Shown here piece after piece: positions 2,877 through 34,940 of a stretch of DNA of 64,000 nt. The number at the start of each line of letters is the position of its first letter. Position 1 is the stretch's first letter. The notes under the pieces are model-generated. The model saw only the letters and a list, made by a program, of their open reading frames with translations. It was not told where the DNA came from and searched no databases. The DNA comes from Kiritimatiellia bacterium (lineage in GTDB: Bacteria > Verrucomicrobiota > Kiritimatiellia > JAAZAB01). A program made the translations under genes and the position numbers. The DNA lies in contig JAQUMN010000013.1 in assembly GCA_028718125.1 (NCBI GenBank), positions 1 through 64,000 of the forward strand, read 5' to 3'.

Positions 2877-2881
2877 CATGA
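2699..2881 (+). CDS. Possible 60-residue hypothetical protein, translationally coupled to metXW
   Basis: A short frame starting ATG at 2699 directly after a GGAGGAG ribosome-site-like stretch and ending TGA at 2879-2881, so that its stop overlaps the metXW start in an ATGA arrangement. The protein has three Cys and one Trp and is mainly charged helix-like sequence; I do not recognise it. The last dozen residues are encoded by the iterated GAACACC words, which argues for caution. It may be a leader-type ORF or no gene at all. Confidence 0.3.
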   Translation: MTDEPKDKTCLECIRMLNGLEKSLGRHLSEKKCHWAVVEAADRYSDPNPEHRTMNTEHLS

Positions 2882-13561: not shown

Positions 13562-13576
13562 AGCGTTGAGCGTTAA
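13551..13576. repeat. Iterated GTGAAGC/GTAAAGC word tract
   Basis: Words GTGAAGC, GTAAAGC, GTTGAGC and GTTAAAT follow each other at a 7-8 nt period across the permease stop codon, ending just before the ribosome site of the binding-protein gene. Similar tracts with other words occur at several gene boundaries in this window. Confidence 0.5.
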
Positions 13577-13607
13577 ATTCGGGAAATCAAAAAGGAAGGG
13601 ATACCCC

Positions 13608-14621: not shown

Positions 14622-14624
14622 TTG

Positions 14625-16388: not shown

Positions 16389-17159
16389 TTATTTGTAGCC
16401 CCAGCTTGCCAGGTTGTTATAGCTTATTGCGAGCGATTCAAACGGGTCACGGCCGTAGCAATTATCCTGTTCAACCAGCAGATACTCAACCCCGCTCTTC
16501 TCGGCCTGATTAAGAATGGCGTCCCAGTTCAAATTGCCTTCGCCGACCTCGGCAAACCTTTGTTCGCGTTCTTTGGTTGCGATCATGTCCTTGCAATGCA
16601 GCAGCGGGATCCTTCCGGCCCAGCGTTTAATCCAGTCGGCCGGATCGCCGCCGCCGGCGGCAATCCAATAGGTGTCAATCTCCGCTTTCAGCACCGATGG
16701 GTCGGACTCGTCGCAAATGCTTGCCAGCCATGTCTTGCGGCCATATTTTGCAAGCTCGTGATTGTGATTGTGGTATGAAAAATCCATGCCTGCGTTCTTT
16801 AATTTTTCGGCGATTGGCCCAAGCTCATCGAGGAATCTTTTCACGCCCTCTGCGCAAAAATAATCCTTCGGCAATCCGCCGATGGCCGGGTGGAAACATT
16901 TCCATAATTTATGTTCGGCGATGACTTGATCCAGCTCGTTCAAAAAACGGGTCCAGCTTGTATGGGTGGAAACAATCCGGAGCCCGGCATCCCCGGCCGC
17001 CCTGGCGACATCCTTCGGATCTGCCGGCCCAAAACCGGAAACCTGCACGGTCGTGTAACCTATCGCGGCAACTTTTTTCAACGTCGCGACAATGTCGGGC
17101 AAGGTCTTTTCATATTCCTTCAGTGTATACAGCTGTGCGCCTATCGCCGGCTTGGTCAT
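16389..17159 (-). CDS. Sugar phosphate isomerase/epimerase (xylose isomerase-like TIM barrel)
   Basis: A 256-residue single-domain AP-endonuclease-2/xylose-isomerase-like TIM barrel. It has the family features GAQLYTLKEY at the N terminus, YHNHNHEL with metal-ligand His residues mid-sequence, EIDTYWI, LLHCKDM and EQDNCYGRDPFES near the end. The start ATG at 17159 follows AAGGAGA; an upstream in-frame ATG lacks a ribosome site. These enzymes rearrange sugars or inositol-type compounds using a divalent metal. It is the last gene of the long minus-strand carbohydrate run and may process the released monosaccharide. Confidence 0.85.
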   Translation of the reverse strand: MTKPAIGAQLYTLKEYEKTLPDIVATLKKVAAIGYTTVQVSGFGPADPKDVARAAGDAGLRIVSTHTSWTRFLNELDQVIAEHKLWKCFHPAIGGLPKDYFCAEGVKRFLDELGPIAEKLKNAGMDFSYHNHNHELAKYGRKTWLASICDESDPSVLKAEIDTYWIAAGGGDPADWIKRWAGRIPLLHCKDMIATKEREQRFAEVGEGNLNWDAILNQAEKSGVEYLLVEQDNCYGRDPFESLAISYNNLASWGYK

Positions 17160-17238: not shown

Positions 17239-20200
17239 TTAATCGGCTCGCAAATAAACGGTATATTGCGTAAACGGCTGGTTGTCCTTGAGCAAGCGGC
17301 AATAGAAGGCGTAGCCTCCCGAGCTCTGGTCAGTTTTGAGCAGCAGCCGGTTGCGGCCCTTATGCATGTGGACGGACACGATGCGTTCTTCCACCCGCAG
17401 ATAGCAGGTTTCGGGGAATACCCCCACCGTCGTGCCGTTCAAAATCGCTTTGCTGCTTTGGTTAAAACCAAGGGCCAGTTGCACGTCGGTATCCGCCTCT
17501 ACCTGGAGATAACACGCAGCGTAGCCGATGACATTGACCGTTGGCCCGGTGATGTCCATTTCCGGCGCGCTGAGCGTCCCTTTATTAATGCCGTTTTTTG
17601 GGCTCTCTATGTAGTCCCAGAAAATTTCCGTTTTCCCGGGTATCCACCACCACGACCGGCCGGCGGGGAAAACGACTTTCAACCGCGCGCCGAAAGCCGG
17701 GACAACCCCGCTTTCGCCCCCAGCGCTTTGCAAGAAATCGGTGCGGAATCCTACGCTGTTTGTTCGAGCATCGTCGGAAATGTTTGGGAACGGACCGCAA
17801 ACCAGCCAGTTGCGGATGAAGCCATCATTGTCCGGTCGGAATGGGCCCGCCACGTAGTTTGTGGACGGCGTCCGCGGCTGGGCAGCCGGCGCCGGCGGAT
17901 AGACAATATCCCGGGGACTGCCCGCGGTTATAACTGCGGGCAAGGCAAGCCGGGCGCTTAAGTTCGTGGCCGCATGCCCGGCCAAGTCAACCCATTGAAC
18001 GTGTTGGTACCCGGCGGTTTCGCGCGGCGGGAAAGGGTGCTTCTCCGCGATGAACTCCGTGGTATAGGCTTTGCCGTTCCAAGTTGCTGAGGCCCGGTAG
18101 CGGCCGGCGGCGCCCAGACTGAACCAGGCGGTTCCCTGCGGGTCGGTCATGACAGAATCCGCTGCGACGGGTTGTGTGGCCGCAGGCGTTACCTTCACGA
18201 AAGCGCCGGAGGCCGGCACCTCATCCGGCGCGAAACAGACCACGACCTCTGGGGCAATTTTTTCCGCGAGTGGTCCAACATCCAGCCCATCCGCGTCGCG
18301 AAACGCGGCGCGGACTCTCGGCATGGCTACGTTAAACGTGTAAGCCGCGCGCGAGGGATCAAACCAGTTCATCAAAAGCGGATGGGCCACATAACCGCCC
18401 GCGGCCATTCTGGTAGGCCGCATGCCCCGTCCGGAAAGGCTTGGCCATTTGATCTGAACGGAAGGCACGTTGAACACCTGGTTTGCTCCAGCCCACGGCT
18501 CACCGGGAACCGCCGGCTTTCCATCCTTCGTCAGCCGGTCCACGCGGCTGGCTTCCTTGGTCCACGGTCCGAACGCAAACCCATCCTGGGTATCGGGCCC
18601 GAACTGGACCGTGCCTGCGGCCGCGCAGAGACTGGCGCCGCGCGCGCCGGCTTCGGCGACCGAGCGGATACTGCACGCCAAGCTGACGCCCGCCAGCACA
18701 TACGCGCGCTGCAACGTCCGGGAACGAATAATTTCGCCCTCCTTGGTCCACCAGTTGAACGGGCTGCTGCCGAAAGCGACGACCATTTCGCCCACATGCA
18801 CGGGGATGCGGCCATCATACTGATAGGCGTTCATGTGCCGCTTTAAAAAGTCACCCAGGGGCGCGCCGTAGGGGTGCGAGTTAAACACCTGAAGGTTGTC
18901 ATACAGGCCCATAGCGGCGACATTAGCAATGGCCGGGCTTCCGTGCCATTCGAGCAGTCGGGTAGGATCCAACGTTTGGAGGAGTTTTCCCCGCATGTTC
19001 ATGATGGCGTATAGCTGGGGTCGGGGTACGGTCTCGCCGCTCAGGCACTCGTTGTCGCCGGAATAGATGACAATGCTCGGATGGTTGGCATGGGCCCAGA
19101 TGAAATTGCGCCACTTGGCCTCGATCCCGGCGACATCGCCGTTGGGGCCGGTTATGCCTTGCTGGCCGGTTACACCCAGCTGGGGCTCCACCAGCGCGCC
19201 GACCTCATCCGCCACGTCAAACCAGACATCGTTGGCAAAGGCAAATACGTGATGGCGGACGAAATTCATGTTGCCTTCCCGGAGAAACTGGAAATATCGC
19301 TGGGCGAAGCCACGGTTCTCGTACGCGCTTTCGATCCCGTGCAGATCGCCCTTGATGAAGAATGGCTTGCCGTTGAACATAAAGTTGGTTCCCCGAGCGC
19401 CGAATTCGCGGAACCCGAAGCGCGCGTAGCTCTCGCCGGTGGCGCCGCCCCGCTCCAGGCGGTGGCGCATGGCATATAAATACGGCGTCCCATACGGAGC
19501 AAAGCCCCACAACACGGGATTGGTCCAGGCCTGGGTGAATACGATATTGGTCAGGGCGCCGGCGGGGACGTTCACCGTTTGCGGGTCGAACCGCAACGCC
19601 AGCCCGCCTTCTTCCTCCATGACATCCGCCGCCACATTGCCGACAGCGTCATGCCGGGTCAGGTTGCGCACATAGACATGGGATTCGATCGTTTGTTTGC
19701 GTACGGAGGTCCGCACAATGATATTGTCAATATAGAGCGCGGGATAGAATTTCAGATACACATCGCCACGGATGCCGCCCGCACTGTGAAAATTAAAGGC
19801 TTCGACTTCTTTCAACAACACCCGCAGTTCGTTGGTCTGGCCATAAAGCAGTTTGTCGTCCATCCGCACCCTGATTGGCAGATCGCGCATCGCGCTCGCG
19901 CCGGCACGTTGGCCGTTCAGATAGTAGGTCGCCTCCCCGTCAACGCAGGTGCAATAAAGTTCCGCATAAGCGGCCTTCTGGTATTCAGCCGGTGCCACAA
20001 ACTTAACCCTGTACCACGCCGGCCGCGGCGGCGGATAGGAACGTGCGGTGGCGGGCGGATAGACATATTGCCCAATGAATCGCGTGATGGAAGGAATGCC
20101 GAGCGGCTCCCACCCTGTTTCCGGCGCGGCGTTGGTGTCGGCATTGAACACGGCTTCCCAGCGTCCGTTCAGGCAGAGGGATTCAACTTGCCCCGGCACG

Positions 20201-21207
20201 GGTTCCACATCAAGCGGAGATCGCAAATCCGGCCCGACCAACGGGGGAATCGTGGCTGCAGCCGATTTCAGACTGACGGGATCGTACACCTCGCCCAGGT
20301 TCGCCAGGCGATCTTCGATCCCGGCGCTGTCGAGCTCCACGTCCATCCGATACATTGCCGCTAATTTGGCGAATGCGATCGCTTTGCCGTTCCGGGTCCA
20401 CGATGGCGAGGCATTCTGATTGTTGTCCGTGGTCAGCGCAACGCGCTGGCGTCCGTCAATGGACATCACGACGATGTTGTCCAGCGGTTGCATCTGCGAA
20501 TGGATCATGGCGATCCATTTACCGTCCGGCGACCAGCGCGGTGAGAAATAGCCCACCGCGTAGTAGCTACCCGCTGCGGTATCCCCGCGCTGGATCAGGC
20601 GCGGATTTGAGCCGTCCACGCCCATCACCCCCAGGGACCGCGCGCCGTTCGGCTCGGAGATGACGAACGCCAGATATTTACCGTCCGGAGATGGGACGGC
20701 ATCCATCTCGTTGCGCTGGGAAATGATCCGTTGTTTACCGGTTTGGACGTTCAGGACTGATACACCCAGTTTTTTGTCCTGAAAGGCGATATAATAGATA
20801 GTTTCGCCATCCGGCGACCAGTGCGGATTTGTGCTATATAAGTTGCTCGTCAATTGTTTGACGTTCGACCCGTCCGCGTTCATGATCGCAATGTCGGATC
20901 CCTGGGCGCGGCTGGCAACAAAACAAATCCTCTGCACGTTCTCCGCAAGCGGCGAGTCGTCGACCGGCGAAAACTCGGGGCACGTGCCCGCATTGTGCAG
21001 GACTTGGCACAATCCGGACTCCGTATCCAGAAGCATGATCTTGCCGCCACGGGAGAATACGATCAATTTGCCGTCCGCGCTGACGTTGGGATTGGCAAAG
21101 GATCCCTCCGCCAATTGACGGCAGGCGTTCGTGCGCATACCCGCTCCTGCGGCCAGTCCGGCCCACGCCAGACTAAATACGACCGCAAACAGCCATAGCC
21201 TATTCAT
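17239..21207 (-). CDS. Exported TolB-propeller/glycoside hydrolase family 2-like protein, paralogue 1
   Basis: A 1322-residue exported protein. A signal peptide (MNRLWLFAVVFSLAWAGLAAGAG) precedes a TolB-like beta-propeller at about 30-325, shown by repeated SPDGK-type blades. Then come a GH2-like sugar-binding jelly roll (about 355-510, LNGRWEAVF), an Ig-like domain, and a TIM-barrel region (about 620-880). The likely acid/base is Glu720 in SGDNEC after HPSIVIY and the likely nucleophile Glu807 in HVGE, 87 residues apart, a spacing similar to GH2 enzymes. The C-terminal 190 residues contain NWLVCGPFPN and another jelly-roll-like region. It probably cleaves a beta-linked glycan in the periplasm or at the surface. 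It is a paralogue of the protein at 22684-26562. Start ATG follows GGGAGC. Confidence 0.8.
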   Translation of the reverse strand: MNRLWLFAVVFSLAWAGLAAGAGMRTNACRQLAEGSFANPNVSADGKLIVFSRGGKIMLLDTESGLCQVLHNAGTCPEFSPVDDSPLAENVQRICFVASRAQGSDIAIMNADGSNVKQLTSNLYSTNPHWSPDGETIYYIAFQDKKLGVSVLNVQTGKQRIISQRNEMDAVPSPDGKYLAFVISEPNGARSLGVMGVDGSNPRLIQRGDTAAGSYYAVGYFSPRWSPDGKWIAMIHSQMQPLDNIVVMSIDGRQRVALTTDNNQNASPSWTRNGKAIAFAKLAAMYRMDVELDSAGIEDRLANLGEVYDPVSLKSAAATIPPLVGPDLRSPLDVEPVPGQVESLCLNGRWEAVFNADTNAAPETGWEPLGIPSITRFIGQYVYPPATARSYPPPRPAWYRVKFVAPAEYQKAAYAELYCTCVDGEATYYLNGQRAGASAMRDLPIRVRMDDKLLYGQTNELRVLLKEVEAFNFHSAGGIRGDVYLKFYPALYIDNIIVRTSVRKQTIESHVYVRNLTRHDAVGNVAADVMEEEGGLALRFDPQTVNVPAGALTNIVFTQAWTNPVLWGFAPYGTPYLYAMRHRLERGGATGESYARFGFREFGARGTNFMFNGKPFFIKGDLHGIESAYENRGFAQRYFQFLREGNMNFVRHHVFAFANDVWFDVADEVGALVEPQLGVTGQQGITGPNGDVAGIEAKWRNFIWAHANHPSIVIYSGDNECLSGETVPRPQLYAIMNMRGKLLQTLDPTRLLEWHGSPAIANVAAMGLYDNLQVFNSHPYGAPLGDFLKRHMNAYQYDGRIPVHVGEMVVAFGSSPFNWWTKEGEIIRSRTLQRAYVLAGVSLACSIRSVAEAGARGASLCAAAGTVQFGPDTQDGFAFGPWTKEASRVDRLTKDGKPAVPGEPWAGANQVFNVPSVQIKWPSLSGRGMRPTRMAAGGYVAHPLLMNWFDPSRAAYTFNVAMPRVRAAFRDADGLDVGPLAEKIAPEVVVCFAPDEVPASGAFVKVTPAATQPVAADSVMTDPQGTAWFSLGAAGRYRASATWNGKAYTTEFIAEKHPFPPRETAGYQHVQWVDLAGHAATNLSARLALPAVITAGSPRDIVYPPAPAAQPRTPSTNYVAGPFRPDNDGFIRNWLVCGPFPNISDDARTNSVGFRTDFLQSAGGESGVVPAFGARLKVVFPAGRSWWWIPGKTEIFWDYIESPKNGINKGTLSAPEMDITGPTVNVIGYAACYLQVEADTDVQLALGFNQSSKAILNGTTVGVFPETCYLRVEERIVSVHMHKGRNRLLLKTDQSSGGYAFYCRLLKDNQPFTQYTVYLRAD

Positions 21208-21220
21208 TGCTTTGCTCCCG

Positions 21221-22528
21221 TTACACCGCATCCCAGCTTGTTGAACCTTGGAACATGGTCGTCTGCACGGCATCCTCGTTGAAAAAAGGCAACGCCATTT
21301 GACGGGCGAAAACGGACATGCCGGCCACCTTCAAATGCCCCGTATGGTCGAAATAGGATTCAACCGTACGCTCCGCGACCTCGGCGTCCATCACCATTTG
21401 TTTCTGGGCATCGCTGTAAGGCAATGCGAACTGCCTGAGCAGTGCCCGGCCCTGGTTCATGATATTACGGCACCCGTCGTAACGGGCGGAAGGCGGAATG
21501 GTAAACAGGCAGGGCACATGGGCGCGGCGGCAGATCGCGATGATCTGCGAATAAGCCTTCGCGTTCTCGGCAGCTTTTCGCGAGGAGTCGTTGGCGCTGA
21601 TTTCAAACACGACGATATCCGGGCGGATCAGCGGGGCGGTGTCGCGCATCATCGCGGCCAGCTGCCGGCTGTTGCAGCCGCTTTTGCCGCCATTGATCAC
21701 GATGAAACTGGGCGTGCTCCAGGCTTCGATGCCCCAGAATCGCACGGGATGGCCGGTATCCGTCGCCGTCACGCGCACCACGTGCGCGCCGTCGTCGGGC
21801 AGAGTGAGGCCGGCCCGGGCATCAACAACATCGTTGGTCGAATAGTTGTCCACCTCCGGCCCAACCCGGACATCCTGGGTCAGTCCCTCCGAACAGCGTG
21901 TCTCCAGCGCCAGGCGTCCGTCAACTTCCACCTTGAACGCGCCGCTGTGGAACCGCTTGGCATAGACGATGTTCGCATAGCGCTTGCCGCTGACAGTGAT
22001 TTCCGCGCTGGCGCCAGTTTTGACCGGGGAGCGGAAATCGAAAAACCGCGGCATGCCCAGCGCGTCGAAATGTGCGATCGGCTTTTCGATCAGGGGCCGG
22101 CTGGTCCAGTCGCCGCCGAACCGAAAATCCGGATGACTGAAACGCCGGAATTGAATGTCGCCCTGCCATCCCTGGGCGGTCAGTTGCTCGTAGAGTTGCG
22201 CGGGCGCGTTGCGGTATTCCAGGTGGGGCGGGGAGGCATGGATGCCGAACGGCGAAACGGCGTCCGGGTTGGGTTGCCATTGGCCCGCGGCGTCCCGGAT
22301 GGCGGCGTCGGAGACGGCCGTCATCAACGAGTCCCCCACGCAAAGAATGCGGAAGAGCCGGTCGGCCGGATAGGCGCGGGACCGTAACAACGCCAGTTTG
22401 TCGGCCATCAAGTTGGAAAGGCAGCGATAACCGACGGATACGTTGCGCATGTGTTCGATGCGTTGGAACGCATCCTCCAGGTCCACATGGTACTGATCGA
22501 GGTCGTTAAACGGGTTGGCGCTTCGCAT
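21221..22528 (-). CDS. SGNH/GDSL-family hydrolase (putative esterase)
   Basis: A 435-residue SGNH hydrolase. Block I is ILCVGDSLM with the catalytic Ser at 67; the conserved Gly and Asn blocks appear as NGGKSGCNSRQ and EISANDSS; the catalytic Asp-His pair lies in YFDHTGHLKVAG near the C terminus. A beta-rich region between blocks I and II (about 90-280) looks like an inserted carbohydrate-binding domain, as seen in some acetylxylan esterase-type enzymes. No signal peptide is visible with the ATG at 22528. It lies between the two TolB-GH2 paralogues, 13 bp upstream of one, suggesting removal of acetyl or similar esters from the same glycan. Confidence 0.8.
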   Translation of the reverse strand: MRSANPFNDLDQYHVDLEDAFQRIEHMRNVSVGYRCLSNLMADKLALLRSRAYPADRLFRILCVGDSLMTAVSDAAIRDAAGQWQPNPDAVSPFGIHASPPHLEYRNAPAQLYEQLTAQGWQGDIQFRRFSHPDFRFGGDWTSRPLIEKPIAHFDALGMPRFFDFRSPVKTGASAEITVSGKRYANIVYAKRFHSGAFKVEVDGRLALETRCSEGLTQDVRVGPEVDNYSTNDVVDARAGLTLPDDGAHVVRVTATDTGHPVRFWGIEAWSTPSFIVINGGKSGCNSRQLAAMMRDTAPLIRPDIVVFEISANDSSRKAAENAKAYSQIIAICRRAHVPCLFTIPPSARYDGCRNIMNQGRALLRQFALPYSDAQKQMVMDAEVAERTVESYFDHTGHLKVAGMSVFARQMALPFFNEDAVQTTMFQGSTSWDAV

Positions 22529-22588
22529 CGGTAGTTTGCCTTTCGTTTTAAAGCAGGCGTTGATCTCCAAATCCACGTATAGGAATTT

Positions 22589-22675
22589 TCCGCCAGAGGC
22601 GGATCCGCCTACGGCGGACAATCCCTAGCGGTTCTAACCTGCCCGCAGTGCTACGCACAGTGTTGCAGGCGGGCG
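22589..22675. repeat. Two tandem GC-rich hairpins between operon genes
   Basis: TCCGCCAGAGGCGGATCCGC and CTACGGCGGACA form one hairpin at 22589-22620; CTGCCCGCAGTGCTACGC with GTGTTGCAGGCGGGC forms another at 22638-22675. They lie between the paralogue 2 stop and the SGNH start within one minus-strand run and could modulate transcript stability. The second is related to the hairpin at 6313-6393. Confidence 0.6.
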
Positions 22676-22683
22676 ACCCGCCG

Positions 22684-25600
22684 TTACTCAGCCTTTAAAT
22701 AAACGGTGTAATTTGTAACCGGCTTATTGTCCTTGAGCAGGCGGCAATAGAAGGCATAACCGCCCACGCTCTGGTCAATTTTAAGCAACAACCGGTTGCG
22801 ACCCTTATTCAAGTGGACCGACACGGTGGCTTCGTCCACTATTGCGGCGCCGTGGTCGGGCCATAATCCCACCGTCTTGCCGTTCAGAATCGCCTGGCCG
22901 CCGTCGTCAAAGCCCATGGCCAGTTGCACGTCCATGTCCGATTCCATCTGGAGATAACATGCGGCGTAGCCGACAACATTGACCAGCGGCTTGCTGATAT
23001 CCATTTCAGGAGCCGAGAGGATGTCCTCAAGTTCCATGCGATTATTGCGGCTGGCCAGGTAATCCCAGAAAACTTCCGTTGTGCCGCTCTTCCATGATTG
23101 GCCGGCTGGAAAAACGACTTTCAGCCGCGTGCCGAAGGCCGGCACGACCGCGCTTTCACCCCCGGCGCTTTGCAGAAAATCGGTGCTGAATGATGTCCAG
23201 TTGGTTTTGGCAAAGTCGTAGGCGTTCGGGAACGGACCGCAGACCAGCCAGTTGCGGATAAAGCCCTGGGCATCGGGCTGGAACGGCCCGGCTGCATAGT
23301 TGGTGGATGCCGCGCGGGGCTTTTTGATCACGGCCGCTTCCGGCACATAGACGATTTCCTTGGGATTGCTCACGGTCACAACCGCGGGCCGGGCCAGCAG
23401 AGCGCTTAGGTTCTTGGATGCGTTCCCGGCCAGGTCAACCCATTGAACGTGGCCGTATCCGGAGGTCTCGCGCGGCGGGAAGGGGCGCTTCTCCGCGACA
23501 AATTCCGTGGTATAGGTTTTCCCGTTCCAGGTTGCCGAGGCCCGGTAGCGGCCCGCGGATTGCAACGTGAACCAGGCGGCGCCCTGCGGGTCGGTCATGA
23601 CGGAATCCGCCGGCGCGCTTTGCGCTTTGAGCGGGGTCACCTTCACGAACGCGCCGACCGCCGGGACCTCGTCCGGTGCAAGGCACACCACAACCTCGGG
23701 CGCCAGCGTCTCCGCAAGCGGACCCGGCTCAATGCCGTCCACGTCGCGAAACGCGGCGCGGACTTTCAGCATGGACGAGTTGAACGTGTAAGCCGCTCGC
23801 GAGGGATCGAACCAGTTCATGAGAGGGTTGCCGGGGCCGCAACTGGCGCCGGCGCCCATGGAGGTTGTGCGCATGCCTTTCCCGGAAAGGCTTGGCCATG
23901 GGATCTGTACCGAGGGCGCATTGACCACTTGGGACCCTTTTGGGGGCAGCTCGCCGGGAACCACCGGCTTGCCATCCTTCGTCAGCCGATCCGTACGCAA
24001 CGCTTCTTTCTGCCACGGACCGAACGCCACGCCGCCTTTGCCGTCCGGTCCGAACTGGAGCGTAGCCACGGAGCTGCAGAGCGTGACGCCGCAGGCGCCG
24101 ACCGAGGCGACGGAGCGGATCATATCCGCCTGTTCGTCTCCCGTAATCTCGTAGATGCGTTGCAGTTTTTCGGAACGCTTGACTTCGCCCGCCATCGTCC
24201 ACCAGTTGAACGGGCTGGCGCCGTGCCCGACATACAGTTCGCCCACATGGACCGGGATTTGTCCGTTATACTGGCATTCCTGCATATCTTTTTTAAGCTG
24301 GATACTCAGGGGCATGCTGTAGGGGTGCGAGTTGAAGACCTGGAGGTTGTCATAAAGGCCCATGGCGGCGGCAATACCTAAGGCCGGGTCTCCATGCCAT
24401 TCGACCAGCCGGGTCGGATCAAGCGTATTCAGGAGTTTGCCCCGCTGGTTCATGCGGGCATACAAATCGGGCACGGGTATGAGACAGCCGCTTAACGACT
24501 CGTTGTCGGCGGAATACATGACGATGCTCGGGTGGTTGGCGTGCGTCCAGATGAAATTGCGCCACTGGGCGTCGCTGCCTTCGGTCATATAGAGTTGTGT
24601 CTCCATCAGTATGCCGACCTCGTCGGCCACGTCGAACCAGACGTCGTTGCCGAAAGTCCAGGTATGATGGCGAATGAAATTCATGTTGCCTTCCCGGAGA
24701 AACTGGGAATACCGCTGGACAAATCCCCGGTTCTGGATCTCATCTTGGAGACTGCCGGGGTGATCGCCTTTGATCCAGAGCGCCTTGCCGTTCAGCATGA
24801 AATGTGGCCCCTCGCCCCAGAACTCGCGAAACCCGAACCGCGCGCAGCCTTCGCCGATAGCGCGGCCCTGTTCCAGGCGGTGGCGCATGGAATATAGATA
24901 GGGCTTTCCATAAAGGCCGAAGCCCCACAGCACCGGATTGGTCCAGGCCTGGGTAAACACCACGTCGGTCATGGTGCCGGCCGGAACCTTCACCGGTTGC
25001 GGCTCAAATCGCAAGGCCACCTCGCCATCTTCCCCGATGACGTCGCCGGTAACCGTGGCTTCGGTTGGATGCTTGCTCAGGTTGCGCACATAGACCCGGG
25101 ATTCGATCGTTTGCTTGCGCACCGAGGTCGTGACGATGATGTTGTCGACATACAGCGCCGGATAGAATTTCATAAAGATGTCGCCGCGAATGCCCGTATC
25201 GCGCGGATCAATTTTGCCCTGCTTCAAGAACACCTGAAGCTCATTGGTCCGGCCCCAGAGCAGTTTCTGGTCCACCCGTAGGCGGACCGGCAGGTCGGAG
25301 AGCGCGCTCTCGCCCACCGGTGCGCCGTTCATATAATACTTGGCGTCACCGCTCACACAGGTGATATACAGTTCCGCATAGGGGGCCTTCTGGTATTCGG
25401 CGGGTACCACGAACTTAACCTTGAACCAGGCGGGCGCTGCGCTATGTGCAGGAACGGTTATGGCTACCCACCCATTTTCCGGCGCGATGTTGTTAGTAGA
25501 CTTTGTGACGGCTTCCCAGCAGCCGTTCAGGCAGACGGATTCCACGACGCCGGGTATCGGTTCGACATCCAACGGAGCTTTGACATCCGGTCCTGCCAAG

Positions 25601-26562
25601 GCCGGCAAGGCTTCCGCAACCGCCTCGCGGTCGGCAGGATTATACACCGCGCCGAGGCTTGCCAGGCGATCTTCAATCCCGGCGCTGTCAAGCGTTACGT
25701 CCATTTGGTACAGGGCTGGTTGCGGGTGGCCAAGCAATTTACCGAACACGATCGTCTTGCCGTCCCGCGACCACGAGGGCGAGGCGCTCTGCCCACTGTC
25801 CGCGGTCAACGTCACACGCTGGCGACCGTCGATGGACACCGCAACGAGATTATCCAGCGGCTGCATCTGGGAATAGACCATGACGATCCATTTGCCGTCC
25901 GGGGACCAGCGCGGCTCGAAATAGCCGCTGGACGGCACCGTCGTCCCCTGCATGAGCAGGCGCGGATTGCTTCCATCCGTGCCCATCACGCCCAGCGCGC
26001 GCGAGCCTTTCGGTTCGACGATGACAAAGGCCAGGTATTTGCCGTCCGGCGAGGGGACGGCATCCATCTCGTTGCGTTGGGAAACGACCCGTTGTTCACC
26101 CGTCTTGATGTTGCGAATGAACACGCCTATCTTTTTATCCTGCAAGGCAATATAGTAGATGCTCCGGCCGTCCGGCGCCCAGTGCGGGCTTGTGCTGTAT
26201 TGGTTGGTCGTCAGTTGCTGAACGTCCGACCCGTCCGCGTTCATGACCGCAATGACCGAGTCGGCTCCATACTTGCGGCAGGTGGCAAAACATATTTTTT
26301 TGCCGTCCGGCGAGAACTCGGGAAACATGCCGGCATCATGAATTACGTTACTTGATCCCGCCGCCAGGTTCAGCACAACGATCTTTCCCGGCATGCTTGC
26401 GGTGGTGGAGAATACGAGCAGTTTGCCGTCGGCGCTGAGGTCAGGATGGTAGGCCGGTCCCGCCGCCAATTGGCGGCAGGCGTTGATTTGAATTCCAGCC
26501 CCCGACGCCAGTCCGGCGCACGCCAACCCGAATATGACCACAAGCAGTCCTCGTATGTTCAT
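22684..26562 (-). CDS. Exported TolB-propeller/glycoside hydrolase family 2-like protein, paralogue 2
   Basis: A 1292-residue paralogue of the product of 17239-21207, with the same order: signal peptide (MNIRGLLVVIFGLACAGLASGAG), TolB-like propeller (about 30-320), GH2-like jelly roll, Ig-like domain, TIM-barrel region with likely acid/base Glu688 (SADNES) and nucleophile Glu775 (HVGE), 87 residues apart as in the other copy, and the C-terminal NWLVCGPFPN domain. It is shorter because the linkers differ; several loops near the active site also differ (PLSIQLKKD versus PLGDFLKRH), so substrate or linkage may differ. Start ATG at 26562 has an AAGGAG site. An upstream 318-bp gap holds no recognisable gene. 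Confidence 0.8.
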   Translation of the reverse strand: MNIRGLLVVIFGLACAGLASGAGIQINACRQLAAGPAYHPDLSADGKLLVFSTTASMPGKIVVLNLAAGSSNVIHDAGMFPEFSPDGKKICFATCRKYGADSVIAVMNADGSDVQQLTTNQYSTSPHWAPDGRSIYYIALQDKKIGVFIRNIKTGEQRVVSQRNEMDAVPSPDGKYLAFVIVEPKGSRALGVMGTDGSNPRLLMQGTTVPSSGYFEPRWSPDGKWIVMVYSQMQPLDNLVAVSIDGRQRVTLTADSGQSASPSWSRDGKTIVFGKLLGHPQPALYQMDVTLDSAGIEDRLASLGAVYNPADREAVAEALPALAGPDVKAPLDVEPIPGVVESVCLNGCWEAVTKSTNNIAPENGWVAITVPAHSAAPAWFKVKFVVPAEYQKAPYAELYITCVSGDAKYYMNGAPVGESALSDLPVRLRVDQKLLWGRTNELQVFLKQGKIDPRDTGIRGDIFMKFYPALYVDNIIVTTSVRKQTIESRVYVRNLSKHPTEATVTGDVIGEDGEVALRFEPQPVKVPAGTMTDVVFTQAWTNPVLWGFGLYGKPYLYSMRHRLEQGRAIGEGCARFGFREFWGEGPHFMLNGKALWIKGDHPGSLQDEIQNRGFVQRYSQFLREGNMNFIRHHTWTFGNDVWFDVADEVGILMETQLYMTEGSDAQWRNFIWTHANHPSIVMYSADNESLSGCLIPVPDLYARMNQRGKLLNTLDPTRLVEWHGDPALGIAAAMGLYDNLQVFNSHPYSMPLSIQLKKDMQECQYNGQIPVHVGELYVGHGASPFNWWTMAGEVKRSEKLQRIYEITGDEQADMIRSVASVGACGVTLCSSVATLQFGPDGKGGVAFGPWQKEALRTDRLTKDGKPVVPGELPPKGSQVVNAPSVQIPWPSLSGKGMRTTSMGAGASCGPGNPLMNWFDPSRAAYTFNSSMLKVRAAFRDVDGIEPGPLAETLAPEVVVCLAPDEVPAVGAFVKVTPLKAQSAPADSVMTDPQGAAWFTLQSAGRYRASATWNGKTYTTEFVAEKRPFPPRETSGYGHVQWVDLAGNASKNLSALLARPAVVTVSNPKEIVYVPEAAVIKKPRAASTNYAAGPFQPDAQGFIRNWLVCGPFPNAYDFAKTNWTSFSTDFLQSAGGESAVVPAFGTRLKVVFPAGQSWKSGTTEVFWDYLASRNNRMELEDILSAPEMDISKPLVNVVGYAACYLQMESDMDVQLAMGFDDGGQAILNGKTVGLWPDHGAAIVDEATVSVHLNKGRNRLLLKIDQSVGGYAFYCRLLKDNKPVTNYTVYLKAE

Positions 26563-26880: not shown

Positions 26881-29433
26881 TCAGAACTCAACTTCAAACT
26901 TCATGCCAGCGGGCAGCCGTTGGAAGAGGATGCGGTCGCTCGTAAAGTGGCGATAGGCGCGCCCGTTGATTCGCACCTTTTTGATCGGCTTGGCTCCCGG
27001 GTGGCGCAACAGGATGTCGCCGGCCACGGGGCCGCGGCCGGCGGTAATTGTAATTTCGCCCGTCATGCGATCGCCTGTGTGATCGACCCGTATGGCACAG
27101 GAGACCGCGCCATGTTCCGTCTTCCAGTCGCGCAGTGAAAATGACTGGAGGGGTTCCAGCCAGGCGCGCGGGACGCCCCGCAGGAAAAACAGTCCCTGTT
27201 CCCGTTCGAAAATAATGGCCTCGGCGATCATCGTAATCAGGCGGGCGCTCCCGCTTGGATTAACCTGCACCGGCGCCCAATACGGATCAATGGCGCTGAT
27301 TCGTTCGGTCGTTTGGAGCGTGTCGGTCAGGCAGAACGCGATCAGGCTGTAGAGCGTCAGCAGCGCTTTCTCCGGCTCATGGCGTTCAAGATAAATTCGG
27401 TAGCGTTCGTATTCTACAGCAATAACGTAGTATTCGGCGCCCTTAATGCCGCATCGCGGAGCGCTGTCGGTGAGTTGTTCGTCATCCAACCGGTTGCATA
27501 ACCCCAGCAGTTGGCGCCCGCCCGTGCTCAAACGCCGGTCAATCCGCCGATACAGCTCGCGGAACAGCGCCGAACCGACCGGGGTCATCCCGGCATTCAG
27601 GGCGATCAGCATGGATCCTGCCCAGGCCCACGGGATGGGACCCTTGGGCGGATAGACGACGTGCGGCACAAGATCCGAGCCGGGCCGCAGCGTGAGCGCG
27701 ATCCGGAACATGCGCTGCAGGCACCGGCGATAATCATCGACCTCGTCCTGGAGATGTTCCGGGAGTTTGATCCCGGCTCGCTGAAAGGCCTTGACTATCT
27801 GGTGGAGCCCGTTCCAGGAGGGGCAATCGGTAAAGGCGTAGAAATAGCCTCTTTCCTCGGTATCCGTGGCCCGGGCGCTGGGCAACAGCCCGTAATGCCG
27901 CACCGGCCGGCCGTGTGCATCCTTGACCTTGGTCAATTGGCGCTGGAGGTGAATCCATTCCATGGCCATGAGCGCCGAGGCCGTCTTGGCCTTCAGCCAT
28001 TCCCGGTCGCCTGACAGGAGATAATGCCGGCCCATGACCCCCAGCATGCAGCCGGTATCCTGCATCCAATTACAGTTGGAATCGAACGCCCCGCTTAAGG
28101 TCGAGATTTCGGCTTTTTCCGGGCCGGACCAGTCAATCTGTTTGCGGGTGAAATACTCGATTATTTTGGCGGCTTCCGCATGCAATCCAAGCTGGTCGAA
28201 CGTGTCGGCGCAATGGCGGGCTTCGCCCACCCATGCGGCCATCGGCCAGACCGATCCCTGGCTGGGGAAAAGAACGTCATCCGTTTCCACAAAACGGTGA
28301 TGCATCTGGTGCAACGAAATAACCTGGGCGCGCCAGGCGTTCATGACGCGCGGCTCCGGGACCCTTAACTGGGCGCCGCGTTTGAGAATCAGTTCCCACC
28401 GGCGAATGCATTTGGCGCGCTCGCGTTCATACCGCAGGCGGCGTACCGCCCGCAGGCGGCGCACCGCTTGCCGGCCGGAGGCGCTCCAGAAACGGTCGGC
28501 AAAGCAGGTCCGGAAGGTAAGTTGGAGGCTTGCGCCGGGGGCGAGTTCCAGCGAAAAGCAGGGAACTTTTTCCTTCGGCTTGAAGCTGTCGGGATGCGCG
28601 TTGCCGGGAAACTTGCCTAACCGCAAGGCGACATTTGGCGGACAATCAACCCGGCAGATCATCCGGCCGTTGTGATAGAGCTCATGGCCGCTTTGTTCGA
28701 GACGCAGGCTGCCGCTTGCCCAGGCGCCGGTTGGATAACCATTGAAACGGCCGTAGTTGCACCAGCCGAAGGCGGCGCGCGGCGCGATGGCAAAACACTT
28801 GAATAACTGTTGACGCAAGATTCTCCGGCCGGGATTGCGGACCGTCAGGCGCTCCCAGAGCACACGATTATAGCAAAAAGTGCCGGGCGATTCCTCGTCG
28901 GCGCCGACCACGAAGCATTCGGCGGTAAACTCGGCGCCATTCTGGTTCCAACGGGTCGTGACAATCGGCAGCCCCCGGTGGGCGTTGAGCGCCTCATGGA
29001 GATAATCGGGAAAGCGGGCCGGGTTGCCGATAGCCAGGCCGGTGCCAAAAACGCCCGGATCCGGCGGTCGGCCTCCGCGGACGCGGCCATCAATGCGCAG
29101 GACCGTCAAATTCGGGTGAAGCTGGCAGAATGCATAATCCGCTTTCTCCTGCAAGGGCGTGTGAAAAACCGCCGGATGCGCGATCAGTCCATCCAATTCG
29201 GCCAGCGTCACATCGTGCCGGCGCCGGGCAACGGATTCCGGCGCCAGCGATTGCAGGCCGGGCGGGGGGCTATACTCACCGCGCCGTATGCCCTCGCAGG
29301 TCTTGAAGCCCCGCCACATTTCCTCGGGCGTTTTTTGTTTGTCGCCGCGGGTCAATCCCTCCGGGGCCTTGAGCATTGCCCGGCGGGTTATGGCATCCAG
29401 GGCATCCTGGTGTGTGGCTTTATTCATGCGCAT
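26881..29433 (-). CDS. Six-hairpin glycosidase-like protein of unassigned family
   Basis: An 850-residue protein without a signal peptide. The N-terminal third is beta-rich (TRWNQNGAEFTAECFVV, then RVLWERLTVRNPG), and the rest is helical with segments typical of alpha/alpha-barrel glycosidases, including FPSQGSVWPMAAWVGEARHCADTF and NCNWMQDTGCMLGVMGRHYL about residues 350-480. I could not place it in a numbered family; GH63, GH65, GH78 and GH127 share this general plan. Asp and Glu residues in those segments are candidate catalytic groups. It starts ATG 29433 or ATG 29427, the latter with AAAGAG six bases before. It is flanked by GH116 and TolB-GH2 genes on the same strand. Confidence 0.6.
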   Translation of the reverse strand: MRMNKATHQDALDAITRRAMLKAPEGLTRGDKQKTPEEMWRGFKTCEGIRRGEYSPPPGLQSLAPESVARRRHDVTLAELDGLIAHPAVFHTPLQEKADYAFCQLHPNLTVLRIDGRVRGGRPPDPGVFGTGLAIGNPARFPDYLHEALNAHRGLPIVTTRWNQNGAEFTAECFVVGADEESPGTFCYNRVLWERLTVRNPGRRILRQQLFKCFAIAPRAAFGWCNYGRFNGYPTGAWASGSLRLEQSGHELYHNGRMICRVDCPPNVALRLGKFPGNAHPDSFKPKEKVPCFSLELAPGASLQLTFRTCFADRFWSASGRQAVRRLRAVRRLRYERERAKCIRRWELILKRGAQLRVPEPRVMNAWRAQVISLHQMHHRFVETDDVLFPSQGSVWPMAAWVGEARHCADTFDQLGLHAEAAKIIEYFTRKQIDWSGPEKAEISTLSGAFDSNCNWMQDTGCMLGVMGRHYLLSGDREWLKAKTASALMAMEWIHLQRQLTKVKDAHGRPVRHYGLLPSARATDTEERGYFYAFTDCPSWNGLHQIVKAFQRAGIKLPEHLQDEVDDYRRCLQRMFRIALTLRPGSDLVPHVVYPPKGPIPWAWAGSMLIALNAGMTPVGSALFRELYRRIDRRLSTGGRQLLGLCNRLDDEQLTDSAPRCGIKGAEYYVIAVEYERYRIYLERHEPEKALLTLYSLIAFCLTDTLQTTERISAIDPYWAPVQVNPSGSARLITMIAEAIIFEREQGLFFLRGVPRAWLEPLQSFSLRDWKTEHGAVSCAIRVDHTGDRMTGEITITAGRGPVAGDILLRHPGAKPIKKVRINGRAYRHFTSDRILFQRLPAGMKFEVEF

Positions 29434-29535: not shown

Positions 29536-32091
29536 TTAGACAAAACTTATTTCCAAGCGCCGGGTCTGTCCCTCGCGGATGAGGCAATCGCGGCGAAACA
29601 CGGTGGCGCCCAGCCCGGTAAGCTCCAGTCGCTTGAGCGTTAAGCGGCCTTTCAATACGGAAAGACCGACTCGCGCCGCGCCCCGCTTAAGAATAATCCG
29701 GCATTGTCCCCAGGCGGAGCCGTTGGACCAGAAGTGGCAACCGCGCCTGGCGGCAAAGGTCATCGTTCCGGTCACGCCCGAATAGTGAAACCCGGTCAGC
29801 GCCGGCACAGCCGCCCACGCGGCCATGGCGCGTGCGTAATGATGGCCGCACTCGGCTTCGTCGAAGGGGCTGCGCTTGCGGCCATCGAAGCGATGGCGGA
29901 TGTCCCGGATACATTCTAGGCCCTGCGCGATGCGGCCTTCCTGGATAAGCTGGACGGCCACGACGTATTCGAAGCCGGTCATGACTTCCGTGAAATAAAT
30001 GAAAGGAAATTGCGGCCGGCACTTCGGGTAATGCGCCATGACCAGTCCCGATTCGTCGCCGAGCGCGTAACCGCGCAAGCTGTTGAAGCACCGCCCTATT
30101 TTTTTGCGCCGGTTATAGGCGAGAATGCTTTGAAGCGTCCGGCGTACGTGGGCGGGAGCCAGCAGGTAACCCAGGCCGCACAGGTGCGCCATGTACTGGC
30201 CGACCAACTGGTCAACCAGGCAGCCATGTTCAAGCTGATGGTTGAGCGCCTGGCCGGGCTTGAGCGCCCCGGTAAAATTCAAGCCTTTTGCGATTGCAGC
30301 CGGATCGGCCGGTACGCGCACCTGATGCTCGAAATATTCGCCATTAAATAAATGCCGGTCGGTCCATTTGCTTCCGCGCTCGAAAAGCGTGCGGCATTGA
30401 GCGGCGAAATCCGCTTCGCCAACCTGGCGGGCCATTTCTTCGCCCGCGCGCAGCGCGCCGAGATACCAGCCTTCCATCTGGGGATTAGGCCCGAAATATT
30501 CGACATCCATGGTATTGTGCTGGCAGCCTTCCATAACCCCGTCCCGGTCGGCATCCCAGCCGCCGGCGATCCAGCAGAAAGCCAGGGCGGCCTTGACCTT
30601 CGGCCATAATCGGGCCAGCCACGCGTTGTCCCCGGACAGTTGCCACTCGCGGTAGATTTTCAGGATGCAGCCCATCTGTCCGTCGGCGGCGGCCCGGCCG
30701 TATTTCCGGGCCTGACTTAAGGGCAGGTAAACCCGGAAACTCATCAGGCCGGTGTCGTCGGTGGCGCAGTCGAATTCGGTTGCGCGCATGTCCCGGGCAA
30801 GCTTGCCGAAAAGGAACGGCGTGGCCTGCTCGTAATTCCAGACGTGCGTGCAGTTGCCTTGGCAGATGCCCGCATGGTCCATGCAGCCTTCCCAACCGAA
30901 GAATTTTCCGTCGGGGGTGCGGAAACAAGTCTGCGTGCGCAGGGTGCTCAAATTAAAGAGCGCGGCTTCCTTGACCTCGACGGGCAAATCGCTCCCGCAA
31001 AACGCCTGCACAAAGCGCAAGGTGCCATGTTCCAGGGCGGCCAATTGCGGCGCCGTTTTTTTGACCACATCCCAGGCGTCGCGATAACGGGTGGTGTAAT
31101 AGTTGCCGATCAAATTGGCCCTGGCGACGGATGCACTCGTGCCGTCCCTGGGCGCGACCAGCGGCGTCCAGGATTGGCGGTTGGGAAAATGCCAGGCGAC
31201 CAGGAACGTCACCGTGCGTTCCGAGTGCGCCGGCAGATTAGAGGCGACCGCCAGCGAGGCCATGGGATCGGCGACGGGTTTGCCGGTTCGTTCCGAGAGC
31301 CGACCGTCATGATTTAAGTCGTCCCAGAAGTCAAGCAGCGCATCGCCGTCGGTCCAGGGCACATTCCAGGGCGCCATCCAGTTCGTCCGGTACGTTATGC
31401 TGCGGGTGGCCAGCGTGGCGAGGGCCAACGACCCGTATTGTTCGGCCTGCTTCGCCACGCCGCGGGATGCCATAAAAATACCCGCAAGTCCGGCCGATGC
31501 GCGGAATTGGTTGAAATTATCTTTCGGCCCCGGTGCGTTGGGAGAGCCGTCCTGGCCGATGAAATTCCGCAGAACACCGCACAGTGAGGTCCGTACGACG
31601 CCATTGGTTCGATTGGTCAGCACGAAACGCAGGACCGCCAGGGGTATGCCGCTCTTTTCGGCATCCGGCGGGATCAACGGATTGAATCCCTCCAGCCGCA
31701 CGGCAACCGGTACATCGGGATCGGAAAGCCGCACCTGTCCGAAAGGGTAGGCAGCGGCAAAGGAACACTGGCGGAAGCGCGGCATGCCATGGGTGGGCGC
31801 CGTGCTGCCGAAGGCGCCCTCGTAATTTTCCTTGTCGAGCGGGCCCTCAACCAGTCGCGTGACGGCATGCCCTTGGGCGGATTTTGTGTAAAGCGCAAAA
31901 AAAGAATGCGGATTGAAACCCTTGGCCGGGCGGTTCATGATCTCCCAGTTGCGGAGATTGCCGTTGCCGCCCAGCGAGACCGTGCCCGTGCCGATGCCGC
32001 CCAACGGCAGGGCGATGCGGCGCAGATGATCGCCGTCATAAAGCTTCACGCGCGGCCAGGTTGAATTCCAGGCCGCAAATTTCGCTTTCAT
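29536..32091 (-). CDS. GH116-family beta-glycosidase (GBA2-like)
   Basis: An 851-residue protein of glycoside hydrolase family 116. The N-terminal domain opens with LPLGGIGTGTVSLGGNGNLR followed by NWEIMNRP, the hallmark of the GBA2_N domain. The C-terminal alpha/alpha barrel contains WDADRDGVMEGCQHNTMDVE and the conserved Asp529, matching the catalytic acid/base Asp of GH116; the nucleophile Glu is expected in the stretch near residues 395-425. The family includes beta-glucosidases, beta-xylosidases and glucosylceramidases. No signal peptide is visible, so it likely acts on imported oligosaccharides in the cytoplasm. The start has a weak AGAGGC site. Confidence 0.88.
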   Translation of the reverse strand: MKAKFAAWNSTWPRVKLYDGDHLRRIALPLGGIGTGTVSLGGNGNLRNWEIMNRPAKGFNPHSFFALYTKSAQGHAVTRLVEGPLDKENYEGAFGSTAPTHGMPRFRQCSFAAAYPFGQVRLSDPDVPVAVRLEGFNPLIPPDAEKSGIPLAVLRFVLTNRTNGVVRTSLCGVLRNFIGQDGSPNAPGPKDNFNQFRASAGLAGIFMASRGVAKQAEQYGSLALATLATRSITYRTNWMAPWNVPWTDGDALLDFWDDLNHDGRLSERTGKPVADPMASLAVASNLPAHSERTVTFLVAWHFPNRQSWTPLVAPRDGTSASVARANLIGNYYTTRYRDAWDVVKKTAPQLAALEHGTLRFVQAFCGSDLPVEVKEAALFNLSTLRTQTCFRTPDGKFFGWEGCMDHAGICQGNCTHVWNYEQATPFLFGKLARDMRATEFDCATDDTGLMSFRVYLPLSQARKYGRAAADGQMGCILKIYREWQLSGDNAWLARLWPKVKAALAFCWIAGGWDADRDGVMEGCQHNTMDVEYFGPNPQMEGWYLGALRAGEEMARQVGEADFAAQCRTLFERGSKWTDRHLFNGEYFEHQVRVPADPAAIAKGLNFTGALKPGQALNHQLEHGCLVDQLVGQYMAHLCGLGYLLAPAHVRRTLQSILAYNRRKKIGRCFNSLRGYALGDESGLVMAHYPKCRPQFPFIYFTEVMTGFEYVVAVQLIQEGRIAQGLECIRDIRHRFDGRKRSPFDEAECGHHYARAMAAWAAVPALTGFHYSGVTGTMTFAARRGCHFWSNGSAWGQCRIILKRGAARVGLSVLKGRLTLKRLELTGLGATVFRRDCLIREGQTRRLEISFV

Positions 32092-32325: not shown

Positions 32326-34536
32326 TCAAACGCACTTGACCATTTGGCCGGGTTCCAGGGTTAGCCGGCGTTTAAAACCACCCGGCGCGCTGAGCTGCAC
32401 GATTCGCGTTTCCGTATGGTCGTTGGTAATCTCCAACCGCTCCAAGCGACCGTCTTTGAGGCCCGCCGAAACACGCAATCCGTCCTCCGTGGTCAGATTC
32501 TCGAAGGAGACGGTCTTCCAATCCGGCGGCAGGGTCATGAGCACCCGCAGATGTTCGCCGACTCTTTGCAGGAGCAGCCCGTGTACGGCCCATAGATAAG
32601 CCGCATGCGCGGTAAAAAACCAGTCTCTGTAAAGCTCGCCATGGCAAAAAATACGTTCCGGGATTCCGCCGTAGCAGTTGGTGAATTTGGCGTTTTTGCG
32701 CAGTCTTTCCCATGCTTGCGCGTCGCCGGACTCGGCCAGTATCCGGATTGCCCAGTTCTCCGCCCAGGTGAAGTTGCGCGCCAGATAACGGTTGAGCCCC
32801 ATGCTGTTGTAACCATCCAGTTCCTTGTCATATTTGGAAATAGCCGCCATGGTATTGGCGCGCGCCGGATGGTCCGGAAACAGGGAAAAGATCAGCGAGC
32901 CCCAGTGCGGCACGCGCCCGCCATGGAACGACTGCATTACGCCATGCTCATCCACGTTGCGGTTGAGCGCGTCCCAAAGCAAGGCGCGCAACCTGGGCAG
33001 GTCGGGCCGGTAGGGCTTGCGCCCGATTTTTTCCGCTGCCTGCAGATAGTAATCGATGCTTTTGATAATCCCCGCGCAGGTCCAGGTGTCGGTGCTCTTC
33101 TTGTCCACCACCGATTCATCCGGCCCGGCGCAGGCCGCCAGCGCAGCCGTTTGCCCATCCGTCCGCACCAGTTTTTCGATCAGGAACCGCAAGGCGTCCT
33201 CCATGACCGGATAGGCTTGCTCCAGGAACTCGGCGTCGCCGCCGGCCTGCCAGACCTGGGCCATCTGGATGAATGCGTCCCCGTTATTATGGAATTGGAT
33301 GGCGCGCGCGGCGTCACGCGTGAAGAAGCGGCGGTTGCTGGTCCAGGAAAACCGCGCTCCGCCGACGCCCAGTTGCCTGGCCACGTCGCGCGCTTCATCC
33401 AGTTTACCGATCCAGAATTCGGAAATGCGCCGCGCGTCGTCGCGGCGATTGCTTCCCAGCCAGGCCATCGAGCAGAACCAGCTGTCCCAGAACATGCAGT
33501 TCTGCCACTGATACGGCAGAATGCCCATAGGCATGAATCCCGTCGCGCGGTTGAAAACGCTGTTCAAAACATAGAGCGAAGTGTCGTATATATATTGCAG
33601 GTCGCTGGCCGGTAAGCGCACCCGGGCCCGGTCGTTGTAAGCCTGCCAGGACTGGACATGCGCCGCGCGTGTTGGCGCATAGCCATCCGCCTGCGTCCGG
33701 GCGATTAATGCCGTCAGGTCTTTTTTGGGATCAGGCGTGTCCTCAGAATCGAGAACCGCCGTGTAACACGTCACCACCGTTCCGGTGGTGAGCGCAGCCG
33801 TGACCAGGCGATCCTTGGCGCTACCTTTTGCTGAAGCTTCCTCATTTGCCCCGACTCCCTGAGAGGCCGGGGCTGCGGGGGAAAAGTCGCAGGACACGTC
33901 ATACCAGGTCGCGCACGCTCCCCGGTAACCGCAAATTTCATAGGAAAAGCCGAGCATGCGCTTTTCGCGCGTTGTCCAGTATTCAACGCCTTGGGCGACC
34001 AGCGGCAGATCGTTTCCACAGGTGCCTGCATCATGGCGCGGCGGGCGGATGCAGAATTCAAGGTGGAATGGGGTCGCCGGCGCCTCCAGAACCTCGTAAC
34101 GCTCGACCAGGATATGCTCGTCGGTCAGGAAGGTGGTAACCTTCAGGCTGATTTGCCCGGGATCGCGGTGACTGAATTGGCTGAACCGGGTGGTGACCGT
34201 CGCTGTTTTGGGGTCAAACACCTGTTCCATTTTAATCGGCATGATCTCTTCCGTGCCGATAAACAAAAGCGTTGCCGGATGGGCCAGGCAAAGGCTGCTG
34301 CCATAGGAGGTGTCCGATTTGAAGTTCTTGCGGTCAGTCTTGAACCAGCCCAGGGAAGTTTTGTCGGGCAATAGCCCGGAATAATGCAGAAAACTCAGCG
34401 AATCCGTGCTCCCGGCCGGATTAACCATGATTGCATCCGTGCCGTTGGCCAGGATGATCGGGAAATAAGGGCGCTCCGGGAAACAGGCGCCTTCCGGGGT
34501 TGCCGCCAAACCGCCTTGCTGGTATTTTACATTCAT
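32326..34536 (-). CDS. GH65-like alpha/alpha-barrel glycosidase
   Basis: A 736-residue protein. The N-terminal beta-sandwich (about 30-290) ends with a linker to an alpha/alpha barrel. The barrel has WQNCMFWDSWFCSMAWLGS, like the FWD segment of GH65 and related families, and CAGPDES with Glu474, where GH65 enzymes carry their general acid Glu. It may be a hydrolase or a phosphorylase acting on an oligosaccharide; GH65, GH37 and GH63 relationships cannot be separated by eye. No signal peptide is visible. I chose ATG 34536, which follows AAGGA; ATG 34560 lacks a site. First gene of the minus-strand carbohydrate run. Confidence 0.65.
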   Translation of the reverse strand: MNVKYQQGGLAATPEGACFPERPYFPIILANGTDAIMVNPAGSTDSLSFLHYSGLLPDKTSLGWFKTDRKNFKSDTSYGSSLCLAHPATLLFIGTEEIMPIKMEQVFDPKTATVTTRFSQFSHRDPGQISLKVTTFLTDEHILVERYEVLEAPATPFHLEFCIRPPRHDAGTCGNDLPLVAQGVEYWTTREKRMLGFSYEICGYRGACATWYDVSCDFSPAAPASQGVGANEEASAKGSAKDRLVTAALTTGTVVTCYTAVLDSEDTPDPKKDLTALIARTQADGYAPTRAAHVQSWQAYNDRARVRLPASDLQYIYDTSLYVLNSVFNRATGFMPMGILPYQWQNCMFWDSWFCSMAWLGSNRRDDARRISEFWIGKLDEARDVARQLGVGGARFSWTSNRRFFTRDAARAIQFHNNGDAFIQMAQVWQAGGDAEFLEQAYPVMEDALRFLIEKLVRTDGQTAALAACAGPDESVVDKKSTDTWTCAGIIKSIDYYLQAAEKIGRKPYRPDLPRLRALLWDALNRNVDEHGVMQSFHGGRVPHWGSLIFSLFPDHPARANTMAAISKYDKELDGYNSMGLNRYLARNFTWAENWAIRILAESGDAQAWERLRKNAKFTNCYGGIPERIFCHGELYRDWFFTAHAAYLWAVHGLLLQRVGEHLRVLMTLPPDWKTVSFENLTTEDGLRVSAGLKDGRLERLEITNDHTETRIVQLSAPGGFKRRLTLEPGQMVKCV

Positions 34537-34799: not shown

Positions 34800-34940
34800 G
34801 TTTCGCAAGTAGATGCCGCCGTGTTTCTGGCGTAAGTCTTTTTGCCGAAATGATTTGAGGTGTGCCGGTCTGTTTTATTTGCGGATAATATTGGTTGCCG
34901 TTAAATGCCGACAACCTGTTTTTTAAAGGAAAATTGTTTT

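Follow-up and report, generated by a model that had tools for sequence, protein, structure and literature searches.

The GH2 family is among the best-studied groups of glycosidases. In the S9 peptidases (DPP IV, prolyl oligopeptidase), a propeller gates access to the hydrolase. Beta-propeller folds are also known as catalysts in their own right, in propeller-fold lyases and glycosidases (PMC8406133). The window analyzed here, a stretch of 64,000 nucleotides from a Kiritimatiellia bacterium, encodes two paralogous proteins of 1322 and 1292 residues, 63% identical over their full length, in which a TolB-like propeller precedes a GH2 enzyme in a single chain. An earlier note on this DNA had described these two giants, and both are exact open frames at the positions in Table 1. 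We found no GH2 with a partner propeller in the literature searched, a search with subscription papers and InterPro architectures outside its scope; as far as that literature goes, the parts are known folds and the pairing is new. We propose, with a probability of roughly 0.6, that each fusion is a secreted, retaining GH2 beta-glycosidase with an intact active site and a TolB-like propeller as its dedicated subunit, the two having become fused and the fusion then multiplied in this genome.

Architecture and active site of the window fusions

Table 1. Positions in the window of the fusion genes, their parts, and neighboring genes.
Feature	Position	Strand
Fusion copy 1, 1322 aa: signal peptide, PD40 propeller, GH2, Ig-like, C-terminal domain	17239..21207	-
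Copy 1 propeller, about residues 23-286	20350..21141	-
Copy 1 Gln-Pro motif, residues 240-241	20485-20490	-
Copy 1 GH2 region and the Ig-like domain after it, residues 341-1071	17995..20187	-
Copy 1 E720, predicted acid/base, DNE motif	19048..19050	-
Copy 1 E807, predicted nucleophile, HVGE motif	18787..18789	-
Copy 1 C-terminal domain, GFIRNWLVCGPFPN type	17242..17847	-
Fusion copy 2, 1292 aa, architecture as copy 1	22684..26562	-
Copy 2 six-bladed PD40/TolB-like propeller, residues 23-285	25708..26496	-
Copy 2 invariant Gln234-Pro235, blade 5 hairpin loop (MQPLDN)	25858..25863	-
Copy 2 GH2 sandwich and Ig domains, residues 340-580	24823..25545	-
Copy 2 GH2 TIM barrel, about residues 581-930	23773..24822	-
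Copy 2 E688	24499-24501	-
Copy 2 E775	24238-24240	-
Copy 2 C-terminal domain, residues 1092-1292	22687..23289	-
SGNH/GDSL hydrolase gene between the copies; GDS, SAND, DHTGH motifs	21221..22528	-
Sugar-phosphate isomerase/epimerase-like gene (PF01261), directly downstream of copy 1	16389..17156	-
850-aa protein, upstream of copy 2	26881..29433	-
GH116 enzyme (PF12215, PF04685), no evident signal peptide	29536..32091	-
GH65/GH95-like enzyme	32326..34536	-

Of the domain order that the earlier note had read from the sequence (signal peptide, propeller, GH2 sandwich and barrel, C-terminal domain), the propeller and the GH2 domains were reproduced by Pfam and by an AlphaFold2 model, with the signal-peptide-like stretch at the N terminus of both fusions read by eye. 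PD40 was matched in both copies (E 8e-20 and 1e-24), six SPDG-type repeats could be counted in each propeller, and PF00703 and PF02836 scored above their curated cut-offs in both; the PF02837 sandwich domain was clear in a split relative. The AlphaFold2 model covered residues 23-1070 of the 1292-residue copy, was built with 54 sequences, and reached a mean pLDDT of 83 and a pTM of 0.76; a previous model from 8 sequences had a poor barrel and a pLDDT of 51. Structure prediction had been suggested as a check on the propeller and on an active barrel, and propeller, sandwich, Ig domain, and barrel are all visible in the model, the barrel with both of its glutamates.

The proposed catalytic pairs, E720/E807 in copy 1 and E688/E775 in copy 2, were confirmed at exactly these positions, with the same spacing of 87 residues in both copies. 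In the copy 2 model, both residues lie at barrel strand ends, at the GH2 acid/base and nucleophile sites. Across 54 diverse GH2s, the first Glu (model position E666) and the Asn preceding it were invariant, while the second (E753) was kept in more than 90%; motifs, conservation, and model agree on the GH2 glutamates and place the nucleophile-type Glu on barrel strand 7. Pfam, the model, and Foldseek also recovered the GH2 succession of sandwich, Ig, and TIM barrel. Profile searches of the PDB matched GH2 enzymes with E values down to 3e-40, and a Foldseek search with the model returned GH2 enzymes (E 1e-27), among which the GH2 beta-galacturonidase 6ncw gave the most compact match (rmsd 5.6). 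A dead barrel is unlikely given the position of the Glu pair in the model, the Foldseek matches, and the conservation among the 54 GH2s. Our best reading of sequence and model is that the fusions are predicted to be catalytically intact retaining GH2 beta-glycosidases.

The C-terminal domain, for which the jelly-roll fold named in the earlier note is putative, had no sequence match in Pfam or the PDB, including a profile search of the latter, and its sole hint was a weak RhaB_D2 match (E 0.18-0.26). It is also encoded by a gene of its own and forms the N-terminal part of other GH2s. Judging from its sequence and placements, it is an unnamed accessory domain. A domain of this kind (GFIxNWLxxGPFPN type) is N-terminal in a sister GH2 group (L032, L150, L155, L182, L190, and others).

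Distribution of the GH2-propeller pairing

The source genome holds five propeller-GH2 fusions on three contigs. The three full-length fusions beyond the window are a tandem pair on contig C9 (L021 9436-14430 and 5448-9374) and a single gene on C3; one of the C9 fusions bears an extra C-terminal right-handed beta-helix (PF13229). Mid-gene, the two C9 fusions do not differ in DNA for about 150 codons, and toward either end they are only about 65% alike, which indicates recent gene conversion or recombination. The same genome also carries the parts separately. On C19, the C-terminal domain, propeller, and GH2 are three consecutive genes, and on C8, GH2 and propeller are neighboring genes. A gene combining HEAT repeats with a GH42M-like region lies ahead of the C9 fusion pair and another ahead of the C19 split set, so the fused and split sets lie in similar surroundings. 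The large proteins of this HEAT/GH42M-like type (L021 655-5415 and L023 12050-16363) are 30% identical to each other. Contig C33 holds a 202-residue remnant of a related GH2, barrel part only, beside SGNH-like genes (L027 6781-7389).

We searched 388 genomes of the phylum and a named genome collection with a GH2 profile, scoring two candidates per genome. The top matches outside the source genome were in G520, G439, G299, and G526, each with a same-strand propeller gene directly adjoining. An Armatimonadetes protein (JACQGJ010000721.1) has the parts in reverse order, with GH2 N-terminal, then a CBM9-like domain, and the propeller C-terminal. Split GH2 and propeller genes occurred in six genomes, this one included, and of the 388 genomes of the phylum that were searched, this one alone had an N-terminal propeller on a GH2. 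The earlier note was thus right that the propeller-first fusion is unusual. The genome survey for which it had called upheld that rarity and changed its meaning, showing the fusion to be one arrangement within a broader GH2-propeller partnership.

We examined 129 GH2 frames. Of the 16 that scored at least 381 bits, 14 had a propeller; the exceptions were an unfused GH2 on C44 of the source genome and one at a contig end. Only 4 of the remaining 113 frames had any propeller match, and the 2 inspected were weak (E about 6e-7) and lacked the Gln-Pro motif described below. In the GH2 tree, the 14 propeller-linked members and the C44 GH2, which has no propeller within several kilobases, formed one clade (support 99), and the propeller label changed twice compared to a mean of 12.6 when shuffled. 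The propeller is fused or directly adjacent in 14 of the clade's 15 members, which include relatives from four other families and the Armatimonadetes protein. The five fusions formed a clade of their own (support 100), which implies that the propeller-first fusion arose once and that the Armatimonadetes fusion is separate.

A reciprocal search of the 388 genomes with a propeller profile, scoring six candidates per genome, matched G000, G520, G526, G299, and G439 at E 1e-86 or better. The next matches, TolB-length proteins, were weaker by 50 orders of magnitude (about 1e-33). The GH2 clade and the strong propeller matches mark the identical five genomes of 388, each of a different family; the probability of this by chance is about 1e-11 if genomes are independent, a figure that is indicative only because the thresholds were set after seeing the gap. 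Another genome, G567, was found later by its GH2 alone, out of sample, and has an adjacent propeller with the Gln-Pro motif. In nine genomes of the same genus or family, no copy reached E 1e-20, which gives no support to vertical inheritance within the genus, and plasmid records held ordinary distant GH2s only, with no full-length relative.

Genomes of the PVC group contain many large mosaic enzymes, and the C-terminal domain, too, can stand at one end of a GH2 or the other. Ordinary domain shuffling, in which a generic TolB-like propeller joined a GH2 in this lineage and was copied with no special function, would fit that background. We consider this very improbable, since the association is kept in one clade, in three arrangements, through six genomes from five families and also in Armatimonadetes. 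The reciprocal co-occurrence and the out-of-sample G567 also count against it, as does purifying selection, which acts on all domains (propeller dN/dS 0.14-0.29). Taken together, the pairing of GH2 and propeller across genomes is well supported, and its extent through the clade points to a two-part enzyme. A pairing that recurs as neighboring genes, as one chain, and as one chain in reversed order leads one to expect that the partners are linked physically and in function.

The propeller and its possible roles

A Gln-Pro motif in the blade 5 hairpin loop was invariant in 13 of 13 GH2-linked propellers and absent from 13 control TolB-type propeller frames (two of them the same protein). The loop is of low confidence in the copy 2 model (pLDDT below 50). 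All 13 propellers fell on one side of a tree with three TolBs (99/97). When the lone propeller of G292 was added, a single origin of the GH2-linked propellers was rejected (p-AU 0.004), with long branches involved. This nearest GH2-free propeller (L199/L215) has no GH2 nearby and no Gln-Pro. From these sequences, recruitment of the propeller may have taken place twice; alternatively, the GH2 partner may have been lost in G292.

Given that propeller-fold lyases and glycosidases exist (PMC8406133), the propeller could itself be an enzyme, like PL22, PL25, or GH145, making the protein bifunctional; the G520 propeller has a very weak Pectate_lyase22 match (E 0.0044). This is very improbable. Across 12 aligned propellers, no residue that could form an active site (His, Tyr, Arg, Asp, or Glu) was invariant, and the near-invariant positions besides Gln-Pro were hydrophobic or belonged to the usual PD40 repeat pattern. 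We rejected a PL22 oligogalacturonate lyase in particular, as neither window copy matched PF14583 and no His was invariant in the 12 propellers. The lack of a conserved catalytic residue set fits a binding or scaffold role.

Such a role could be that of a carbohydrate-binding or cell-surface anchoring module, keeping the enzyme near its substrate without shaping or regulating the active site. The split propellers bear their own signal peptides (read by eye), domain order varies, and a CBM9-like domain is encoded in the propeller gene of G520 and in the Armatimonadetes protein, all of which agree with anchoring. However, a binding module that can be swapped freely should also turn up on glycosidases of other families, and strong propeller matches among the 388 genomes occurred only with the GH2 clade. 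We regard anchoring as rather doubtful. The Gln-Pro propeller may instead be an obligate subunit that completes or gates the GH2 active site, making a two-component glycosidase of a so far undescribed kind, in separate or fused chains according to lineage; this we rate as less likely than not.

For the dedicated propeller subunit proposed at the outset, the following scheme can be drawn. In most relatives, the propeller is a separate small protein, probably secreted, that is encoded beside the enzyme; in this genome, propeller, GH2, and C-terminal accessory domain would have been joined into one polypeptide and multiplied to five copies. The fusion is probably secreted, as the signal peptides read by eye suggest. 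A noncatalytic propeller would then dock on the GH2 or present the glycan to it, probably through the loop with the invariant Gln-Pro. If this is true, it would give a function to a set of TolB-like propellers that would otherwise be annotated as generic PD40 proteins, and it would offer a handle on glycan use by uncultured bacteria.

The locus and its relation to known systems

Between 34536 and 16389, seven genes follow one another on the minus strand, spaced by 13 to about 320 bases, in the order GH65/GH95-like, GH116, 850-residue protein, copy 2, SGNH, copy 1, and isomerase/epimerase. The 850-residue protein, for which Pfam gave nothing at E 1 and NCBIfam nothing significant, is possibly a distant alpha/alpha-barrel glycosidase. 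The gene between the copies, reported as an esterase gene in the earlier note, is a candidate SGNH hydrolase. It looks intact, and beyond its SGNH motifs, it matched PF13472 at E 1.2e-6 with 29.6 bits, just under the 32.9-bit cut-off. A homolog 44% identical to it lies directly after the C9 fusion pair; no SGNH gene was seen at the C3 fusion locus, and the link of such a gene with a fusion was seen nowhere beyond the window and C9. The two copies do flank an SGNH gene as described, but with five fusions in the genome, they are not simply a two-copy oddity with an esterase.

On the plus strand, at 12494-16127, lie genes that resemble a sugar ABC transporter (judged by eye to be a permease, a periplasmic binding protein, and an ATPase). 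The natural reading would be a catabolic locus with cleavage outside, import, and cleavage inside. The product of the fusions would be imported by the transport genes and cleaved further by the neighboring GH116 and GH65-like enzymes, and the SGNH protein would remove acyl groups from the same glycan.

Two other observations were made in the window. In a single frame at 2878-4713 (+), a MetX-like alpha/beta hydrolase is joined to MetW (PF07021), apparently a fusion of homoserine acyltransferase and MetW. An FAD-linked oxidase-like gene followed by a lactate-racemase-like (LarA) gene, both assigned by eye only, lies at 34905-37806 (+), directly divergent from the glycosidase run.

Compared to TolB of the Tol-Pal system (TIGR02800; PDB 4jml), the window proteins share the six-bladed PD40 propeller, and TolB was the best sequence match of the window propeller (E 4e-33 in NCBIfam, 5e-36 in the PDB). 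However, no N-terminal TolB domain was seen in the window propellers, and the window propeller scored 115 bits against a curated cut-off of 343 bits. The genome has a full-length TolB on contig C32, which lacks the Gln-Pro loop motif. We therefore rejected identity with Tol-Pal TolB: the propeller stands alone, its score is far under the TIGR02800 cut-off, and the true TolB is elsewhere. With PL22, PL25, and GH145, the fusions have in common a beta-propeller tied to polysaccharide breakdown, but in those enzymes the propeller is the catalyst, whereas here it has no conserved catalytic residues and stands with a separate, intact GH2. The S9 peptidases likewise join a propeller of similar repeats to a hydrolase; the catalytic partner here is a GH2 barrel and not an alpha/beta hydrolase, and gating is putative for the fusions.

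The solved GH2 enzymes of the beta-galactosidase/glucuronidase/galacturonidase type (5t98, 6d8g, and 6ncw) have the same order of sandwich, Ig, and TIM barrel and a recognizable fold, with the same acid/base in an NE motif and the second Glu near the barrel end. The window fusions are about 20% identical or less to these members and far under the cut-offs of the NCBIfam GH2 models, and they carry an extra C-terminal domain; a TolB-like propeller is fused to the enzyme or, in relatives, encoded next door. Since the defining features of TolB and of the propeller lyases were looked for and not found, we place the fusions among GH2 systems.
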